DNA from: Nitrospinota bacterium
GTDB lineage: Bacteria; Nitrospinota_A; UBA7883; JACRGQ01
Reading direction: 5' to 3'
Length of the DNA stretch: 63,907 nucleotides
NCBI GenBank assembly: GCA_016217735.1
Contig: JACRGQ010000043.1
Span: 1-63,907, forward strand
In this document: positions 22,618 through 30,193 of the stretch, one piece after another
How positions within the stretch are numbered: the stretch's first letter is position 1
How the letters are laid out: every line of letters starts with the position of its first letter
Notes under the pieces: model-generated
Seen by the model: only the letters and a program-made list of their open reading frames with translations
Database searches by the model: none
What the model was told of the DNA's origin: nothing
Made by a program: the position numbers and the translations under genes

Positions 22618-22646
22618 TTGACTCGCCGACAGCGCGGCCTTATAGT
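22618..22646 (+). promoter_or_regulatory. strong sigma70 promoter of the CCIK/csp operon
   Basis: TTGACT (22618-22623), a 17-nt spacer and TATAGT (22641-22646). The ATG is 9 nt after the -10, so the leader would be only 2-3 nt. Confidence 0.65.
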
Positions 22647-22655
22647 GGATTGACA

Positions 22656-23192
22656 ATGGTGAGGTGGGTTTTCCCGGCGTTCGCGCTCCTGCTGCTCATG
22701 CCGCTATCCGCGGCGGCCGCGGCCAACTGCCGCCACGAACAAAGTCATGCCGCCAATCACGCCGCGCGCGCCGAACCGGTCGAAAGCGTCCCGGCCGCCG
22801 GAGCCGCGCCCTGTCCGAATCATCCGGGCCAGCCCCGCACAATCAAGGCAAGCATGATGCCCAAGTGCAACATGGAAGGGTGCTGCATCAAGGCCGATGG
22901 CCCGCTCTCCACCGGCCTCAGCAACCGCCTTTCCACCAACGACGACAACGCATTGGGCATTTCCGCCGGCCAGCCCCGCGCCGGCGGACGGCTGGTGAAT
23001 GCCGCTCCCCATCGGCTCCACCCGCAAAGAAACCCGCCGGAACCCGATCCCCGCCCCCCCGCGCGGCATGCCCTCTTTAAATATGTACACGTTTTTGGCA
23101 AAGCCGCGCCTGATGCGCCCGCGTTAGCGGAGCCGGGCGGCGGCGGAAAAGTAACCAACACTATCAGCAGGAGGATTTATGGACAGACGTGA
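22656..23192 (+). CDS. secreted Cys-motif protein (CCIK family, copy 1)
   Basis: A 178-residue exported protein: signal peptide MVRWVFPAFALLLLMPLSAAAA, then an early Cys-Arg-His, a C-P-N-H, and the core MPKCNMEGCCIK, followed by a low-complexity Pro/Ala/Arg tail. A paralogue with the same layout is encoded at 29123-29602. The Cys/His pattern suggests binding of a thiophilic metal; the family has no name I recognise. It overlaps the following copper-storage gene by 14 nt, so the two are one operon. The longer upstream frame lies inside a repeat and is rejected. Confidence 0.65.
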   Translation: MVRWVFPAFALLLLMPLSAAAAANCRHEQSHAANHAARAEPVESVPAAGAAPCPNHPGQPRTIKASMMPKCNMEGCCIKADGPLSTGLSNRLSTNDDNALGISAGQPRAGGRLVNAAPHRLHPQRNPPEPDPRPPARHALFKYVHVFGKAAPDAPALAEPGGGGKVTNTISRRIYGQT

Positions 23193-23616
23193 AATGCTTA
23201 CCACCCTCGGCGGCATCGCCGCCATCGCCGCCACTTCGGGTATCGCCTTCGCCGCCGAGAAGGGGCACGAACACCACGCCGCCGCCCCGGGAACCGCCGC
23301 GTTGGCCGCTTCCGCGTTCGACTGCGTTCAAGCCGCCGAAACGGGGATACGGCACTGCCTGGTGGAGTTGGGCAAAGGGGACAAATCGCTTGCCGAATGC
23401 GCGGCCAAAATGAACGAGCTGAAGATCGCCTGCACCGCCCTGGGGTCGTTTTCTTCCTTTGATTCGGCCAGCGTGAAGGAAATGGCGCGGCTCACCATAA
23501 AGGTGTGCGAGGAGAGCGAGAAGGAATGCCGGAAATTCGAGAAGCATAAAGAGTGCATGGATTGCGCCGAGTCGTGCAAGAAATGCATCGCGGAGTGCCG
23601 CAAAGTCGCCGCATAA
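23179..23616 (+). CDS. Tat-exported four-helix copper-storage protein (Csp1-like)
   Basis: A 145-residue protein with a twin-arginine start (MDRREMLTTLGG) and an AFA-type cleavage site, then a His-rich stretch and a four-helix bundle with about 11 Cys spaced along the helices (RHC, AEC, IAC, KVC, KEC, MDC, ESC, KKC, AEC). This is the DUF326/Csp1 pattern, in which Cys residues inside the bundle bind many Cu(I) ions. Csp1 of methanotrophs is likewise a Tat substrate. A clear GGAGG precedes the ATG. Likely role: periplasmic copper storage or detoxification. Confidence 0.85.
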   Translation: MDRREMLTTLGGIAAIAATSGIAFAAEKGHEHHAAAPGTAALAASAFDCVQAAETGIRHCLVELGKGDKSLAECAAKMNELKIACTALGSFSSFDSASVKEMARLTIKVCEESEKECRKFEKHKECMDCAESCKKCIAECRKVAA

Positions 23617-23630
23617 CAACTGAAACGCAA

Positions 23631-23660
23631 TCCGCTCCCCGCGCCAAGGCGGGGGGCGGA
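23631..23660. terminator. GC-rich hairpin after the csp gene
   Basis: TCCGCTCCCCGC pairs with GCGGGGGGCGGA around a 6-nt loop, 15 nt after the csp stop. There is no T run on the plus strand, so it may act as a 3' stabiliser rather than a classic terminator. Confidence 0.45.
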
Positions 23661-23708
23661 ATAAAATCCAGGCGATCCCTTTCTATCGGGGCGTTGAAAA
23701 ACCCCCGT

Positions 23709-23866
23709 GTCATTCTGAGGAGCGAAGCGACGAAGAATCCCTTTCCGGAAATAGATTCTTCGCCCTTACAGGACGTTTCCGCGGCGGTTTGTACGCGGCT
23801 GGCTCCATTGCATTTCGCCGCCGCATCTTCTCTCCGCCGCTCCCGCGCCTTTGGCTCAGAATGACA
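23709..23866. repeat. dispersed palindromic repeat, family A copy 1
   Basis: Begins GTCATTCTGAGGAGCGAAGC and contains CTTTCCGGAAA between GAAGAATC and GATTCTTCG. It ends TCAGAATGACA, the inverse of its start. Compared with the other copies it has about 80 nt of extra sequence in its right half. It lies between the converging csp and tonB genes. Confidence 0.7.
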
Positions 23867-23887
23867 AGAATGGTTTTCGACAACCTG

Positions 23888-24565
23888 TTAGCCGACGCGG
23901 AAGTTGAACGGTATCCGCACCCGAACGGCGACCGGCCTGCCGGAAATGTATCCCGGCTCGAACTGGCTTTGCTTCAGGGCGGCTATCACGGCGGCGTCGA
24001 AATCCTCGCCGCCGCTCTGGGCGATGCGGACGTCATCCACGCCGCCCTTTTCGTTGATAAAAACTTCCACCACCACGCGGGCTTTCCGTCCCGACCTGAG
24101 CGCCGTCCGGGGATAGACCGGTTTTACGTTCGTGCGGAAATAGGGGAGGTTGGACAGCTGCTCCGTCTCCTGATACGCGGGTCCCGGGGGCAGGCTCTCC
24201 GTCCGCGGCGCGGGGGGCGCATTCTGGGCGACCACTTCGGGAGCGGGAGGGGTCTCCGGTTGCGGCGCGGGGGGTTCCGCCTTCGCCACGATGGGTTCCA
24301 CCGGCTCCGGCTTTACGGGCGCCGGCTCCGGTTTGGGGAGGGGTTTCGCCGGCTTTGGCGGCGGCACCGGAGCGCACGCCGTGGAGGTATGGGAAACGGG
24401 CGCCGCCCTGCGCACGGCCATCGGCGCTTCCCGGAAGCGGTAAACCTCCGTGGGCAGATAATCTTTTTTCGCGCCCAGCGCCCAGGCGGCGCAACCGAAC
24501 ACGGCGCAGTGAACCGCCAGCGAAACGGCGGCGGCGGGGAACCAGACGGCTTTAACTCTTTTCAT
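23888..24565 (-). CDS. tonB: TonB energy-transducing protein
   Basis: TonB links the ExbB/ExbD proton motor to outer-membrane receptors. It has one N-terminal membrane anchor (VWFPAAAVSLAVHCAVFGCAA), a long Pro/Lys/Glu periplasmic spacer (about residues 65-125), and a C-terminal domain with VYPRTALRSGRKARVVVEV and the end IPFNFRVG. The ATG at 24565 follows GGAGG. Last gene of receptor-BNR-exbB-exbD-tonB, so it probably serves mainly the receptor encoded here. Confidence 0.88.
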   Translation of the reverse strand: MKRVKAVWFPAAAVSLAVHCAVFGCAAWALGAKKDYLPTEVYRFREAPMAVRRAAPVSHTSTACAPVPPPKPAKPLPKPEPAPVKPEPVEPIVAKAEPPAPQPETPPAPEVVAQNAPPAPRTESLPPGPAYQETEQLSNLPYFRTNVKPVYPRTALRSGRKARVVVEVFINEKGGVDDVRIAQSGGEDFDAAVIAALKQSQFEPGYISGRPVAVRVRIPFNFRVG

Positions 24566-24583
24566 CGTGTCCTCCATGCCCCA

Positions 24584-24988
24584 TCAAGCGGGATTTTTCG
24601 GCCGGGTGATGATGTCGATGTTGTGTATGCCGCGTCCCTTGAGGGCGTCTATCACCCCCATAAAATCGCCGTGGCGGCAATTCTCGTCCGCGCCCAGCAG
24701 CACCTCCGCTTCGGGAGGGAGGCCTTGCACGGCGTTTTCCAGTTCCTCGCGCGAGACCTTCCGCTGGTCGATATACATTGTTCCCAGCCCATCGATGTTG
24801 ATGACGGTTTTCGGCTTTGCCTGATCCGGCGCGGCGGCGCTGGAGGCTTCGGGAAACGTCATCTCTATCAGCTTCAGGTTCAGGAACGTGGTGGTGGTGA
24901 TGAAGAAAATAAGGAGAATCAGCACGAGGTCGATCAGGTTCACCGGGGCGATCTCGATGTGGAACTCGGGCCTTCTCCTGCGTCTCAC
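24584..24988 (-). CDS. exbD: ExbD/TolR-family proton channel subunit
   Basis: A 134-residue protein with a short Arg-rich cytoplasmic N-terminus, one membrane helix with the essential Asp (NLIDLVLILLIFFI), and a periplasmic domain ending LKGRGIHNIDIITRPK. With ExbB it harvests the proton gradient for TonB. It overlaps exbB by 4 nt and lies 18 nt before tonB, whose own GGAGG is in the gap. Confidence 0.9.
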   Translation of the reverse strand: MRRRRRPEFHIEIAPVNLIDLVLILLIFFITTTTFLNLKLIEMTFPEASSAAAPDQAKPKTVINIDGLGTMYIDQRKVSREELENAVQGLPPEAEVLLGADENCRHGDFMGVIDALKGRGIHNIDIITRPKNPA

Positions 24989-25578
24989 GGCTGTTCCCCC
25001 TGTTCCGGCGCGGAAACGCCCCCCAGGAGGCGGTAGAGTTTTTCCTCCACCGCGAGGGAGACCTTTGACGCGTGTACCTCGAACGATTTGTAGGCCACCA
25101 TGGCGGGGATCGCCACCACCAGCCCGCCCACCGTATCCAGCAGCACCTCTTTGATGCCGTGCGCGACGGCTTTCGGATCGGTCAGGCCCAAGGACGAAAC
25201 CCCCTCAAACACGTGGAAGACCCCGATGAACGTGCCGATAAGACCTATCATCGGCGCGAGCGTGGCGATGAGGCCGAGGATGGTGACCCGCGCCATCAGC
25301 TTGCCGTCCAGCGCGGCCAGCTTGGTCTGGATAAACGGCTCCAGCGATGCGCCATTGCCGTATGCCGCTATCTCGCCGAACGTTTTTTTAATAATCCCTT
25401 CCGGCAGTTGCCCGGTCTGGCCCAGCCCGGTTATCCGGTCGAGCGCCCGCACCTCTTCGCCGATTTTTTTATACTCGGCGATTTTCGCCACCATGACCGT
25501 TATCGAGGCGATGCTGATGACCATCAGCAGCTTCATGCAGTAATCGCTGTGAACGACGAAATCCATCATGTATTGCAT
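24985..25578 (-). CDS. exbB: ExbB/TolQ-family proton channel subunit
   Basis: A 197-residue membrane protein with three helices. The MotA/TolQ/ExbB core is visible in LGLIATLAPMIGLIGTFIGV and the following DTVGGLVVAIPAMVAYKSFE, which holds the Thr and small residues of the pore. Five ExbB surround two ExbD in known complexes. It sits between the BNR-repeat protein and exbD in the metal-island operon. Confidence 0.9.
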   Translation of the reverse strand: MQYMMDFVVHSDYCMKLLMVISIASITVMVAKIAEYKKIGEEVRALDRITGLGQTGQLPEGIIKKTFGEIAAYGNGASLEPFIQTKLAALDGKLMARVTILGLIATLAPMIGLIGTFIGVFHVFEGVSSLGLTDPKAVAHGIKEVLLDTVGGLVVAIPAMVAYKSFEVHASKVSLAVEEKLYRLLGGVSAPEQGEQP

Positions 25579-25596
25579 ACCGCCTGTTTCTCCCCT

Positions 25597-26832
25597 TTAC
25601 CGGGCCACGCGCAACAGCGAGCGGGTGTTGCGCATCTCATCCTTCGACCATGCCACGGCCATCATGCCGTTGGCGTTTGCGGCAACCGCGGGGGAGGAGG
25701 ATTTCCGCACCCCGTCGCTCAGCCGCCGCGCCGTGCCGCCGGAGGCCGCCTTGAACATGATGTTGCCGAAAACCGGCGTCACTTCTTCCCACGTCAGGTA
25801 AACCTTCCCGCCCGCCACGGCAAGCGCGGGATGATCCGGGAAAAATCCGGGGGTGACGGCGATCTCTTCCTTCGTGAAGGCCGCGCCGCGGTCCGCCGAC
25901 ACGGCGTAATAGATGGCCGGTTTCCCGCCCCCTTCCGAATACCAGATGACGTGCAGCTTGCCGCCGCCATCCACGCCGAGGCCCGCGCCGCGGTGGGGGC
26001 AGCCGGCGATGACCCACTTGTCGTTTCCCACGACGGCGGGCGCGCCGAATGTTTTGCCGCCGTCGCGCGACGAGGCGGCCACCATCTCCCGCACATCGTT
26101 GGCGAAGACCTTGCGCCATACGGCGTAGACCGTGCCGTCCGGGGCGATAGCCAACGCGGTGCGGCAGCAGGGGCAGGAGCCGCCGTCGATCTTCACGTTC
26201 GGCGAAAAGCTTTTGCCGCCGTCGCGCGAAACGGCAAAATAGGTGGCCGAGCCCACGGTGGCTTTTTCCCGCCCGTCGAGCCACGCAAGATAGATGGCGC
26301 CATCCGGCCCCACCGCCATCGATTCAAATCCGGCGGATGCGGGCTGCGGTGAATCGCTCACTTTCACGGCGGGGGAAAAGGTTTTGCCCCCGTCAATCGA
26401 ACGGCTGAATTTGAGGTCCGCCCCAAACGCCGCTCCCGCGCGGGGAGTGGTCCACGCCGCGTAGAGTTCCCCTTTCGGCCCGGTGGCAAGCATGGGGGAA
26501 CCGTGGATGCCGGCCGGCTCGTCGTTCCCGCCATCCACCCGCACGGGGGCCGAAAAATCCTTCCCGTCCGCCGATGCGGCGACATGGAAGAGGTTGTGAT
26601 CCTTTTCCTCCTCGAACCACGCCAGATAAACCGCGCCCTTCGCGTCCATCGCCGCGGCGGGGGTGGAGACCGCCTTGGAGGGATGCGTTACCCCGCCTAT
26701 CTCCGCGAATTCCATTTCCCCGGAAGTCTCGGCGCACCAGGCAGGGGCGGCAAGGCCAAGCATCAAGACGGAGGCCGCCAGCGCGGCGGCCCCCTTTTTT
26801 GCCGTTACTTCAAACATGGTTTTCATTCTCAT
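25597..26832 (-). CDS. secreted BNR/sialidase-fold protein with a CPCC motif
   Basis: A 411-residue exported protein (signal peptide ending APAWCAE) folded as a beta-propeller. Asp-box-like repeats occur several times (SIDGGKTFS, SRDGGKSFS, SSRDGGKTFG). The sialidase catalytic residues are not evident. In the middle is GGSCPCCRTALA, and a further Cys-His pair lies in IAGCPHRGAG. A Cys-rich propeller next to a TonB receptor suggests metal capture or hand-over rather than glycan cleavage. The start overlaps the receptor stop (ATGA); an ATG two codons later is also possible. Confidence 0.75.
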   Translation of the reverse strand: MRMKTMFEVTAKKGAAALAASVLMLGLAAPAWCAETSGEMEFAEIGGVTHPSKAVSTPAAAMDAKGAVYLAWFEEEKDHNLFHVAASADGKDFSAPVRVDGGNDEPAGIHGSPMLATGPKGELYAAWTTPRAGAAFGADLKFSRSIDGGKTFSPAVKVSDSPQPASAGFESMAVGPDGAIYLAWLDGREKATVGSATYFAVSRDGGKSFSPNVKIDGGSCPCCRTALAIAPDGTVYAVWRKVFANDVREMVAASSRDGGKTFGAPAVVGNDKWVIAGCPHRGAGLGVDGGGKLHVIWYSEGGGKPAIYYAVSADRGAAFTKEEIAVTPGFFPDHPALAVAGGKVYLTWEEVTPVFGNIMFKAASGGTARRLSDGVRKSSSPAVAANANGMMAVAWSKDEMRNTRSLLRVAR

Positions 26833-29012
26833 TTAAAGCGGTATTCCACGCCCGCCGAATACGTGCGCGGCATGCCGGGGGCATACTGTTCCCCGGATGC
26901 GGCGGTGTACGCCGATAACATGGCGTACCGCTCGTCGGCGATGTTGGTGACGCGGCCGAAAAACTCCAGATTCTCGCCGGCCTTGTATGAAAGCCGCAGG
27001 TGGAACAGATTGTGCCCGGGGTATTTGTGGGTGTTGTCGTCATCCATCCAATAGCTGCCGAGGCGTTCCCATTCCGCTTCCACGCGGCCGCCGCCCAGCG
27101 CCGCCGGACGCCAGTTCAGGCGCAGGTTGCCGATTTCGGACGGGGCGGATGCCTGTTCCTTGCCGTCGTAGTTCAGGCCGGTTTTGGGGCTCCAATTCCC
27201 GTAGGTGTGCTTGGCGTAGGAATAGGCGATTTCCATTCCCACGGTGTCGGCCAGCCGGGCGGTGATTCCCGTCTCGATGCCGCGGTGCAGCGTTTCGCCG
27301 GCGTTCAGCGTCTCGCGGGTGTTGTTCGCGGTGTTGGTGTAGCTCACGATGTCGTCCGTCTTGGTCATCGAGTAGGCGGTGATTTCCCAACCGAAGCTCT
27401 CTCCCGCCTCGCCGCGCAGGCCGAGGTCATAGCTGTCCACCTTCACCGGCTTGAGGTCCACGGTGTTTTCCGCCTGCCCTTGCCGGAAGAGCTGCGATTC
27501 GGACGGGGTGCGGAACGCGTGGCGGTACGAGACGAAGCCGCTCAAGGACTCGGCGAAGCGGTAGGTGAGGCCCGCCTTGGGGCTGAAATGCGTAAAGTTC
27601 ACGTTTGTGTTGGCGGGGCGCCGCTTGGCGCCGGTGGTAACCGTCGACAGGTTGTTGGTGTAGCTGTATCCCATGTTGTCGTAGCGCAGCCCCAGGGTCA
27701 GGCGCAGATTTTCCGTGGGGGAAAACTCGGTATGCGCGTAGGGGGAAAGACCCTGGTAGGCCACCGTGTAGTCGTAACTCTTGGCGCCGACGGCATAGCC
27801 GGTGTAGATATTGCCGGTCTTGGTGACCGTCAGCCTGTCCTCGTCGTAGCGGCCGGGGCTGTAATCGAAATCGGCTCCCACGATGATGCGCGCCCGCAGC
27901 GATTCCAGATCGACGCGGTACTTGGCCAGCGCGCCGAACGAGTCGTTGCCGCCGCTGGAACGCTGGGGGTCGTACGAGAGCGACCAGTTCGGCAGGAGAT
28001 CCATGCTGTTCGACCGCACATAGGGGGTGATGCTGACCAGCGTATCGCCCGATTCCTTTTCGTACGCCGAGGAAAGGCGGAGCGCCTTCACCTTGCGGTA
28101 GGAGATCGGCGTGTAGTTGACGGTGGGGTTGTTCTGGTAATCGGCAAGCGAAATCTGCGAGGTGCCGGCGGTCTGCTGATCGATATTCGAATAGGTGGCC
28201 ACCGTCTTGAACCGCGAGCCGCTTTCGGATTCCACATCCCAGCGGATGGTGCCGGACTGGCGGTCGAATTTGGTCATATCGCGCCAGCCGTCGGTGTGGG
28301 ATACGTTCACGTCGGCGCGGACGCCGTGGCCGCCGGCCGATACCAGCGTGCGCCAAAAGCCGAATCCGCCCATCTCCAGCGATACGTCCAGCTCCGGGTT
28401 GACCGGCGCGGGGCGCGTGAGCACGTTCACGGTGCCGCCTATCGCGTCGCTGCCGTACAGCGCGGTGCCGGGTCCCTTGACCACTTCAATCCCGCCCGAC
28501 TGCGGAACGTTCACTTCATACAGCGCATTGTGGTTGAAAAATCCGGTGGAGCGGGTCGGTATGCCGTCTTCCAGAAAGAGGTACACCGGGCTGGTGGTCA
28601 TCGGCTGGCGGATGGAGGTCATATGCCCTTCGCCGCCGGTGACGTTCACATACACGCCGGGGACGCGCCCCATGATTTCCGCGGGGTGCTGCGGCCGCGT
28701 TTCCTGAACTTCCTTTTCCTTCACGCCGCCGACCGCCAGCGGCGTCTCCGCCTTGGTTTCCTTTTCGCGCGTGCCTGTGACGACGACGTCATCAAGGACC
28801 AATGCCGGGCCTTCGTGTTTTGATTGTTTCGCCGCCGGGGCCGCCGGTTCTTCCGCCACCGGTGCCTGTGCTGGAGCTTCCGCCGCCGGTGTTGGTGCTG
28901 GAGCTTCCGCCGCCGGTTGTTCCGCCGCCGGTTCTTCCGCGAACGCCGGTATCGCCATCACCGCGCAGAGCGACGCCGTCAATAACAGTTTTCCAAAAAA
29001 TCTTCCGTACAT
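26829..29012 (-). CDS. TonB-dependent outer-membrane receptor
   Basis: A 727-residue receptor. Signal peptide (MYGRFFGKLLLTASLCAV...AFAEE), then an unusual Ala/Pro/Glu low-complexity stretch (about residues 26-65), a TonB-box-like DDVVVTGTRE, a plug domain (PGVYVNVTGG...VKGPGTALYGSDAIGGTVNV) and a 22-strand barrel ending in GVEYRFK. The CirA/BtuB-like layout does not fix the substrate. Its operon carries CCIK and CPCC proteins and faces a copper-storage gene, so copper or another thiophilic metal complex is the best guess. GAGG lies before the ATG. Confidence 0.9.
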   Translation of the reverse strand: MYGRFFGKLLLTASLCAVMAIPAFAEEPAAEQPAAEAPAPTPAAEAPAQAPVAEEPAAPAAKQSKHEGPALVLDDVVVTGTREKETKAETPLAVGGVKEKEVQETRPQHPAEIMGRVPGVYVNVTGGEGHMTSIRQPMTTSPVYLFLEDGIPTRSTGFFNHNALYEVNVPQSGGIEVVKGPGTALYGSDAIGGTVNVLTRPAPVNPELDVSLEMGGFGFWRTLVSAGGHGVRADVNVSHTDGWRDMTKFDRQSGTIRWDVESESGSRFKTVATYSNIDQQTAGTSQISLADYQNNPTVNYTPISYRKVKALRLSSAYEKESGDTLVSITPYVRSNSMDLLPNWSLSYDPQRSSGGNDSFGALAKYRVDLESLRARIIVGADFDYSPGRYDEDRLTVTKTGNIYTGYAVGAKSYDYTVAYQGLSPYAHTEFSPTENLRLTLGLRYDNMGYSYTNNLSTVTTGAKRRPANTNVNFTHFSPKAGLTYRFAESLSGFVSYRHAFRTPSESQLFRQGQAENTVDLKPVKVDSYDLGLRGEAGESFGWEITAYSMTKTDDIVSYTNTANNTRETLNAGETLHRGIETGITARLADTVGMEIAYSYAKHTYGNWSPKTGLNYDGKEQASAPSEIGNLRLNWRPAALGGGRVEAEWERLGSYWMDDDNTHKYPGHNLFHLRLSYKAGENLEFFGRVTNIADERYAMLSAYTAASGEQYAPGMPRTYSAGVEYRFK

Positions 29013-29043
29013 AATTCCTCAAGATGTAAAAAACATGGTTGTT

Positions 29044-29101
29044 AACGCCTCAAGGGCGGTCTTGCGCGGAACCCGCGCGAAAAAGACGCACTTCAGGCGT
29101 T
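29044..29101 (-). promoter_or_regulatory. structured RNA leader of the TonB-receptor gene
   Basis: In the 110 nt between the CCIK and receptor genes, three nested stems can form in the minus-strand RNA: AACGCCTGAAG with CTTGAGGCGTT (one mismatch), GTCTT with AAGAC, and GCGCGG with CCGCGC closed by a 3-nt loop. No T run follows, so it is not a terminator. It could be an attenuator, a protein-binding site or an RNase-processing signal. No known riboswitch consensus (for example the B12 box) is seen. Confidence 0.5.
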
Positions 29102-29122
29102 ACTTAAGATAGGTTGAGGAAA

Positions 29123-29602
29123 TCAGGCGGCCGGGGGGCGCGGGACGGGAGGATAGAGGTTGGAAAGTTTTTCGAGGAGATACGGAGCGGCAAGCTCCTT
29201 TGAGGAAAGCGTGTTAAGCCCTTGGCTGGCATCCACCGCCATTTCGGGCGCGGCTTTGGGGGAGAAACCGCCGTCCGCGAGCGGTATTTCGGTTTTTATG
29301 CAACAGCCGCCCGTGCCGCATTTCATCAGGGCGAGGCGCGAGGAATATGTCTGGCCAAAACCGGAATTATGGGGGCAGTCCCCATTCATGTTGTGTCCGT
29401 CAGCCGAAGAAACCGGCGCGGTTTGCGGAATCTCTTCGATGCCGCCGGCCGCGGAATGCGCGTGACCGGCGTGACGTTCGTTGGCGTCAATTGTTTCCAC
29501 TTCGGCCTTCCCGGCTTGTCCGCGGTGGCAGGACTCTTCCGCCCAGGCAAACCCCGGGAGCACCAGAAGGGCGAAGGCAAACGCCGCAAACAGTTTGGAC
29601 AC
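29123..29602 (-). CDS. secreted Cys-motif protein (CCIK family, copy 2)
   Basis: About 159 residues: signal peptide (SKLFAAFAFALLVLPGFAWA), an early Cys-His, a His-rich stretch (ERHAGHAHS), CPHNSG, and the core LMKCGTGGCCIKTE, ending in PPVPRPPA. The order C...CP...KC-x4-CCIK matches copy 1 (22656-23192). I choose the GTG at 29602 because GGAGGA lies just upstream; a longer ATG frame begins at 29665. First gene of the receptor/exb/tonB operon. It may be a metal-binding or metal-sensing periplasmic protein. Confidence 0.65.
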   Translation of the reverse strand: MSKLFAAFAFALLVLPGFAWAEESCHRGQAGKAEVETIDANERHAGHAHSAAGGIEEIPQTAPVSSADGHNMNGDCPHNSGFGQTYSSRLALMKCGTGGCCIKTEIPLADGGFSPKAAPEMAVDASQGLNTLSSKELAAPYLLEKLSNLYPPVPRPPAA

Positions 29603-30193
29603 CCGATCCTCCACTAACTTCGGCCGGGAAAAACTCCCGCCCATCCTCTCCGCAATCCAGAGCAATACTATATCAAAGGCCGCCCGAATTGAAAAGGCGC
29701 AGTTTGGAACCTCAATCTCCGGCTAAAGGGGTCACCATGCGTGAAGAAACGGCTTCTAACCATGATTGACGGTATCAACGCCGCTTTCCGGCCCAACATG
29801 GTTTTCACACCCATTGGGTGATTTGGGGACGGCTTGGTACCGCAGGATTCATCCTGCGGTTGTCCCCGAAGGGGGCAAGCCTTCTTGGCCCTTGCGGGCC
29901 AACAACAGAATGAATTCCGTTGTACCGGCGCAACACACTTCCTTAGCCGGAGATTTGGGTGGAACGGTAATTTGGGGGTGGCGCCTTATTTTCACGGCGG
30001 GACACGCGTGTCGTTGGTCCGTTAGGGCCAATTTTGTCAGCCCTTTCGGGCTGATGACAGACAAGATGGGAGGAGCGGGATGGCTTTTTTCCATCCGCTC
30101 CGGAGATGGCCTATAGGCTGCTGTCTGTCCTGCCCGCCATATTTTTTCAAACGGGGGCGCTACCCGGCGCTACCGTTGGAGGGAGGGCTAAGG
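29603..30193. repeat. intergenic hairpin array, family D
   Basis: No gene is seen in this 590-nt gap. It contains a chain of inverted repeats: 29840-29859 (CCGCAGGA stem), 29885-29902 (TTGGCCC stem), 30036-30058 (GTCAGCCC stem). The segment 30068-30118 is an inverted, similar copy of 22416-22461. A relative of the 30036 hairpin is found at 56829-56850. Confidence 0.6.

Follow-up and report, generated by a model that had tools for sequence, protein, structure and literature searches.

A putative copper acquisition-and-storage locus of Nitrospinota with candidate nascent-chain copper sensors at the head of both transcription units

A gene island in the genome of a Nitrospinota bacterium probably constitutes a copper acquisition-and-storage locus, with each of its two transcription units headed by a candidate nascent-chain copper sensor. 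Copper acquisition in bacteria is little understood, few TonB copper receptor families have been named, and TonB receptors as a class are import proteins. In the island, a TonB-dependent receptor is encoded with a CPCC-containing beta-propeller and its own exbB, exbD, and tonB genes, opposite a gene for the copper storage protein Csp1. Judging from sequence comparisons, the small Cys-containing CCIK proteins encoded ahead of both units are most likely cis-acting copper-sensing leaders of the CruR/CutF kind and not metal carriers.

Results

Gene content of the island

The window, the whole stretch of 63,907 nucleotides that was analyzed, is the entire contig C43 of a 2.53-Mb genome (G000) that is 95% complete. 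The public collection has near relatives in the form of Nitrospinales/Nitrospinota metagenome assemblies, including one that came from groundwater. All genes named in a preliminary description of this DNA were found where it had placed them, and the features are as follows.

22656..23192, forward strand: CCIK1, putatively exported leader open reading frame (ORF) upstream of csp1, starting at ATG 22656; the conserved part ends near 23063 (RPPA)
22866..22892, forward strand: CNMEGCCIK of CCIK1, proposed Cu(I) sensing motif
23052..23060, forward strand: RPP arrest-like motif of CCIK1, 55 residues past CC
23179..23616, forward strand: csp1, predicted Tat-exported four-helix-bundle copper storage protein of 145 aa with 11 Cys
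23640..23880, no strand assigned: dispersed genome repeat
23888..24577, reverse strand: tonB (PF03544, 65.8 bits)
24584..24988, reverse strand: exbD (PF02472, 75.4 bits)
24985..25578, reverse strand: exbB (PF01618, 76.4 bits)
25597..26832, reverse strand: exported CPCC beta-propeller (BNR/Asp-box), with CPCC at residues 220-223 and GCPH at 277-280
26829..29012, reverse strand: TonB-dependent receptor, 727 aa, above the Pfam cut-off, not TIGR01778 (OprC)
29015..29022, reverse strand: receptor gene Shine-Dalgarno (SD) sequence TTGAGGAA, with predicted masking
29043..29102, reverse strand: GC-rich hairpin in the CCIK2-receptor intergenic region
29114..29121, reverse strand: anti-SD TTCCTCAA, one base past the CCIK2 stop codon, predicted to pair with 29015-29022
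29123..29614, reverse strand: CCIK2, putatively exported leader ORF, most likely starting at GTG 29614, heading the receptor-propeller-exbB-exbD-tonB operon
29132..29140, reverse strand: RPP arrest-like motif of CCIK2, 53 residues past CC and two residues ahead of the stop
29294..29320, reverse strand: CGTGGCCIK of CCIK2, proposed Cu(I) sensing motif

The identification of a Csp1-like copper storage protein was borne out by a full-length match to TIGR04401 (124.7 bits against a cut-off of 100, residues 1-143 of 145), by a Tat-type start, and by matches to PDB entries 5fjd and 8r4l (E values of 1e-13 to 1e-14). The protein shares its Tat-type signal and Cys-rich four-helix bundle with other Csp1 proteins and is distinctive in its 11 Cys and in a gene headed by a leader ORF. 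A search of 24 Nitrospinota genomes, this one included, found Csp1 in 17, and in 16 of these it scored above the family cut-off. In line with the preliminary description, the receptor and the exbB, exbD, and tonB products each passed their own Pfam cut-off.

A family of leader ORFs with a C-terminal arrest-like motif

The two CCIK proteins, described previously as paralogous Cys proteins, are indeed paralogues (BLASTP E value, 3e-7), and their motif stands above chance: a profile of the family matched only Nitrospinota at an E value of <1e-4 across 385 genomes. Neither protein has a family match in Pfam or NCBIfam; for DUF2946 (PF11162) in particular, neither matched at an E value of ≤1, and the genome held no match at ≤0.001. 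Four family genes are present in the genome, two of them outside the window on contigs C5 and C4.

An alignment of the 12 first-found members, drawn from five genomes, revealed a common anatomy. All share a putative export signal, the CCIK N termini being hydrophobic by sequence only. CPxH and C-x4/5-CC-[IY]-K are invariant or nearly so, as is PxPRPPxA at the C terminus, and a His/Cys segment lies between the export signal and the C-x4-CC motif. The distance from CC to RPP was 53 to 55 residues in all 12 members, across an intervening stretch that is poorly conserved, and in 11 of the 12 the RPP stood at the extreme C terminus, as PxPRPPxA followed by the stop. Among 211 background genes, none had RPP within 4 residues of the end, and 9 had PP among the last 15 residues.

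CutF-like proteins are described as having PP within the 15 C-terminal residues, an N-terminal signal peptide, and a length of <150 aa (PMC9973294). PP falls within the last 15 residues of CCIK2 and of 10 of the other 11 first-found members, and not of CCIK1 as it stands. CCIK2, with 163 aa, and CCIK1, with 178 aa and a lost stop, are both longer than that limit; several relatives measure 138 to 149 aa. For most leaders the following gene starts 101 to 129 nt downstream; in the window, this distance is 110 nt between CCIK2 and the receptor gene and -14 nt between CCIK1 and csp1. A preponderance of unrelated neighbors among CCIK homologues, which the preliminary description named as refuting its reading, was not seen: most homologues precede Csp1, TonB receptors, or CCG/CEFC outer membrane barrels, and two copies (G000 contig C5 and G003 contig C97) precede no recognizable copper gene.

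Predicted masking of the receptor Shine-Dalgarno sequence

The predicted fold of the entire CCIK2-receptor intergenic region (z = -3.96; none of 200 shuffles was as stable) contains a long, GC-rich hairpin as well as an outer helix that pairs the bases immediately past the CCIK2 stop codon with the receptor SD. The hairpin is kept in the alignment with G001, G003, and G002. The outer helix is conserved in G001 and, by way of a U-G wobble, in G003; in G002, a shifted anti-SD can still pair with the SD, and that region's own predicted fold differs.

The anti-SD/SD helices vary in sequence yet stay complementary, reading TTCCTCAA/TTGAGGAA in the window, GATCTTCCC/GGGGGAGATC in G008, AATCCTCTTT/AAAGAGGATT in G017, and CCTTTCCC/CGGGAAAGG ahead of the G008 copper receptor. 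The calculated pairing energies were -16.9 kcal/mol for the Csp1 operon of G008, -15.0 for its copper receptor, and -12.1, over ten pairs, for G017. Matched pairs were more stable than permuted ones (P value, 0.022; 10 leader groups). Masking the 15 nt that follow the stop, to mimic a ribosome paused at RPP, raised the predicted openness of the SD in the window (0.19 to 0.48) and in G017 (0.04 to 0.62). The mask is absent or weak in G006, G012, and the csp1-only leaders of G001 and G003.

The CCIK1-csp1 unit

Searches in the window, G001, and G003 found no SD mask for csp1. CCIK1 has lost the stop that follows RPPxA in relatives, and its frame therefore overlaps csp1 by 14 nt. Compared with G001, a 3-nt insertion is present and CAT replaces the G001 TAA, so that a protein of 136 aa up to RPPA is extended to 178 aa. 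We considered whether the long tail is a genuine domain and rejected this; since relatives end at RPPxA, stop loss is the simpler account.

In G001 and G003, csp1 is followed by a CEFC barrel gene, whose place is taken in the window by the dispersed repeat. This repeat, with the core GTCATTCTGAGGAGCGAAGCGACGAAGAATC, has 69 matches across many of the genome's contigs, many of them on both strands. The CEFC barrel gene itself was not found in this 95% complete genome and is present in G001, G003, and G008. The CCIK1-csp1 unit may be drifting here, and because the stop is lost and no SD mask is detectable, its control may be altered or decaying.

An outer-membrane-barrel-like protein with the motif CEFCTxHNGLGQYN was seen after Csp1 or a CCIK leader at four loci (L023:7315-8211, L024:6547-7443, L026:3502-4395, and L027:1036-1992). 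The G003 copy has a Phenol_MetA_deg match, and in G007 (L027:557-2487), one CEFC gene is flanked by two CCIK leaders.

The CPCC propeller and its operons

The preliminary description's CPCC beta-propeller proved to be a BNR protein, and its AlphaFold2 model is a beta-propeller (pLDDT, 85). Both CPCC (220-223) and GCPH (277-280) are invariant in nine sequences, down to 31% identity. Fold matches in the PDB are sialidase-type propellers of sialidases, lyases, and lectins; these matches speak to the fold only and do not imply sialidase activity.

Receptor-propeller pairs also occur outside Nitrospinota, in G193, G226, G315, G355, and a Gemmatimonadaceae genome, some of them with exbB-exbD-tonB. 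A small His/Cys leader-like ORF with PP near its end lies upstream of every receptor and CPCC propeller pair examined; in a scan for such ORFs, they preceded 20 of 254 genes, nearly all in receptor-propeller operons. A pattern scan for further propeller relatives, made with poor patterns, returned only 7 loci. On Roseobacter plasmids, distant propeller relatives adjoin multicopper oxidases, copper-binding proteins, and metal efflux genes. On a Sulfitobacter copper plasmid (L066:1-1748), the TolC gene of the copper oxidase operon is preceded, at a distance of 255 nt, by a leader-like ORF that ends in GFLRPPRFLI. A literature search of open-licence papers found no description of a propeller-copper-TonB operon.

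Copper links in relatives

The proposal that the island joins TonB-dependent copper uptake with Csp1 storage gained support from two relatives that have Csp1 and the receptor in one operon, G008 (L026) and G006 (L121). On contig C3 of G008, a leader, Csp1, the CEFC barrel, the receptor, and the propeller lie on one strand. On contig C51 of the same genome, exbB-exbD-tonB genes close to those of the window are followed by a family leader and then by a TIGR01778 TonB copper receptor (627 bits against a cut-off of 472). A CCIK-family leader thus heads a copper receptor of the OprC/TIGR01778 family, which further backs the copper reading. In G006, the order is a leader ending IPDRPPIA, a receptor 59% identical to that of the window, a PepSY_TM protein, exbB, exbD, tonB, and Csp1. 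This locus bridges the window system to the cruR-crtA-crpH operon of Bordetella (PMC12914433). Asp-box-like repeats occur in the periplasmic parts of the G006 PepSY_TM protein (L121:8435-10126) and may link the PepSY_TM and propeller types of partner. With these relatives, the copper uptake-and-storage reading is strengthened and plausible.

In G012, which belongs to another family, a leader ending ESPPPEFL lies 156 nt ahead of Csp1. At other loci (L022:303-3946, L122, L125, and L127), the genes after a leader encode an Ig-like lipoprotein, an ASCCGGG barrel, and, in most cases, TlpA-like thioredoxins. These loci are a second operon type with the same leader class, conserved across Nitrospinota families, with the G012 example including Csp1. 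A search of open-licence papers found no description of a leader ORF over Csp1.

Discussion

A model for the proposed switch

We propose that a ribosome finishing CCIK2 would pause at RPP, as at the RAPP of CruR, and would then cover the anti-SD and free the receptor SD, allowing the receptor, the CPCC propeller, and the dedicated ExbB-ExbD-TonB to be made. During the pause, the CC motif would sit just outside the ribosome exit, where binding of Cu(I) could alter the pause. If CruR is a guide, copper would relieve the pause and turn uptake off; a CutF-type opposite sign is the alternative. The receptor would import a copper complex, which the propeller would handle in the periplasm at its CPCC/CPH site, in the place of the PepSY_TM protein CrpH of Bordetella, and Csp1 would store Cu(I). 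The CCIK1-csp1 unit would use a related leader, with control in this genome that may be altered or decaying.

Comparison with known systems

That no named system has this set of genes, as claimed previously, is only partly right, for cruR-crtA-crpH of Bordetella pertussis is a close named parallel: a DUF2946 upstream ORF (CruR), a TonB copper transporter (CrtA, or BfrG), and a PepSY_TM protein (CrpH) (PMC9426467, PMC12914433). In CruR, CXXC and RAPP are 45 residues apart and copper acts on the paused ribosome (PMC9426467); arrest at its two prolines has been demonstrated in vitro (PMC12992588). Like this system, the window has a putatively exported Cys leader, an arrest-like motif of the Arg-Pro-Pro type that is set at the C terminus with fixed spacing, a TonB receptor, and a periplasm-facing partner; ExbBD/TonB are present in some members, and the G006 relative even has PepSY_TM. 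Unlike CruR, the CCIK leader is outside Pfam DUF2946, runs from C-x4-CC to RPP with a spacing of 53 to 55 residues, and, for CCIK2, is coupled to a predicted SD mask, in place of Rho termination or in addition to it. A CPCC propeller stands in the PepSY place, and Csp1 is within the locus.

The receptor was compared with two families of copper receptors. OprC was considered and rejected as its identity, TIGR01778 being absent among the 25 matches listed. CrtA transporters share a sequence cluster and a conserved Y, W, E, Q, H, and R ligand site; the window receptor matched PDB 9rvq, probably CrtA as judged by length and two entries, only locally, at the plug.

CutF of Rhodobacter capsulatus (cutFOG) offers a second comparison, with an exported leader that binds copper, a Pro-rich end, and an RNA stem-loop that masks the SD of the following gene (PMC9973294). 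The CCIK leaders differ in having C-x4-CC in place of CxxxC and an RPP end, and in preceding receptor or storage genes and not a multicopper oxidase.

Alternative readings

The shared SD-masking stem-loop (PMC9973294) also favors a reading in which the leaders are CutF-type activators of copper tolerance, with copper prolonging the pause and turning on Csp1 and the receptor-propeller operon, and with the propeller detoxifying. Csp1 can act as a sink for excess Cu(I), and propeller relatives occur in the copper resistance clusters of Roseobacter plasmids. We nevertheless consider this reading unlikely. It fits poorly with the import role of TonB receptors and with an island that lacks an efflux pump or multicopper oxidase. 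In addition, the Bordetella counterpart operon is repressed by copper (PMC9426467, PMC12914433).

Alternatively, the CCIK proteins could be mature periplasmic metal handlers that take copper from the receptor or propeller and give it to Csp1, close to the role in handling imported metal first assigned to them. Their export signal, conserved Cys and His-rich segments, and the neighboring Csp1 and receptor would suit such a role, which we nonetheless find quite improbable: the stretch between CC and RPP is conserved mainly in length, the conserved Pro-rich tail has no obvious metal role, and the CruR and CutF proteins, which share this architecture, work in cis and are quickly degraded (PMC9426467, PMC9973294). 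The fixed motif spacing, the C-terminal RPP, the operon-head position, and the SD-masking pairing directly after the stop point instead to cis-acting nascent-chain sensors.

That the receptor imports non-copper cargo (pyrroloquinoline quinone [PQQ], a ferric siderophore, or a corrinoid) and that its Csp1 neighborhood is incidental would agree with its nearest solved structure, the PQQ transporter PqqU/YncD, with BtuB also among its best solved relatives, and with NCBIfam matches to siderophore, B12, and PqqU families only, all below cut-off, but is highly improbable given the receptor and Csp1 in one operon in G008 and G006, the PepSY_TM protein or CPCC propeller that follows the receptor, cobalamin or iron genes never having been seen with it in the loci examined, and same-family leaders heading a true copper receptor.

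Implications

On the preferred reading, that of a copper acquisition-and-storage locus under nascent-chain sensors, we tentatively suggest that the system could be a third kind of TonB copper uptake beside OprC and CrtA, composed of the sensor, the receptor, a CPCC/CPH propeller replacing PepSY_TM, and ExbBD-TonB, with Csp1 under the same sensor class. If so, the receptor-propeller part of this third kind would reach well beyond the phylum, and the locus would provide the first copper storage under a co-translational copper switch. The proposed switch is simple and testable, with an anti-SD that begins just past the leader stop, within reach of a ribosome paused at RPP. One class of copper sensor acting in cis would be linked through this locus to a receptor family without a name, to a recurrent CPCC propeller, and to Csp1 storage, and control of the CruR/CutF type would extend to Nitrospinota and to copper storage.
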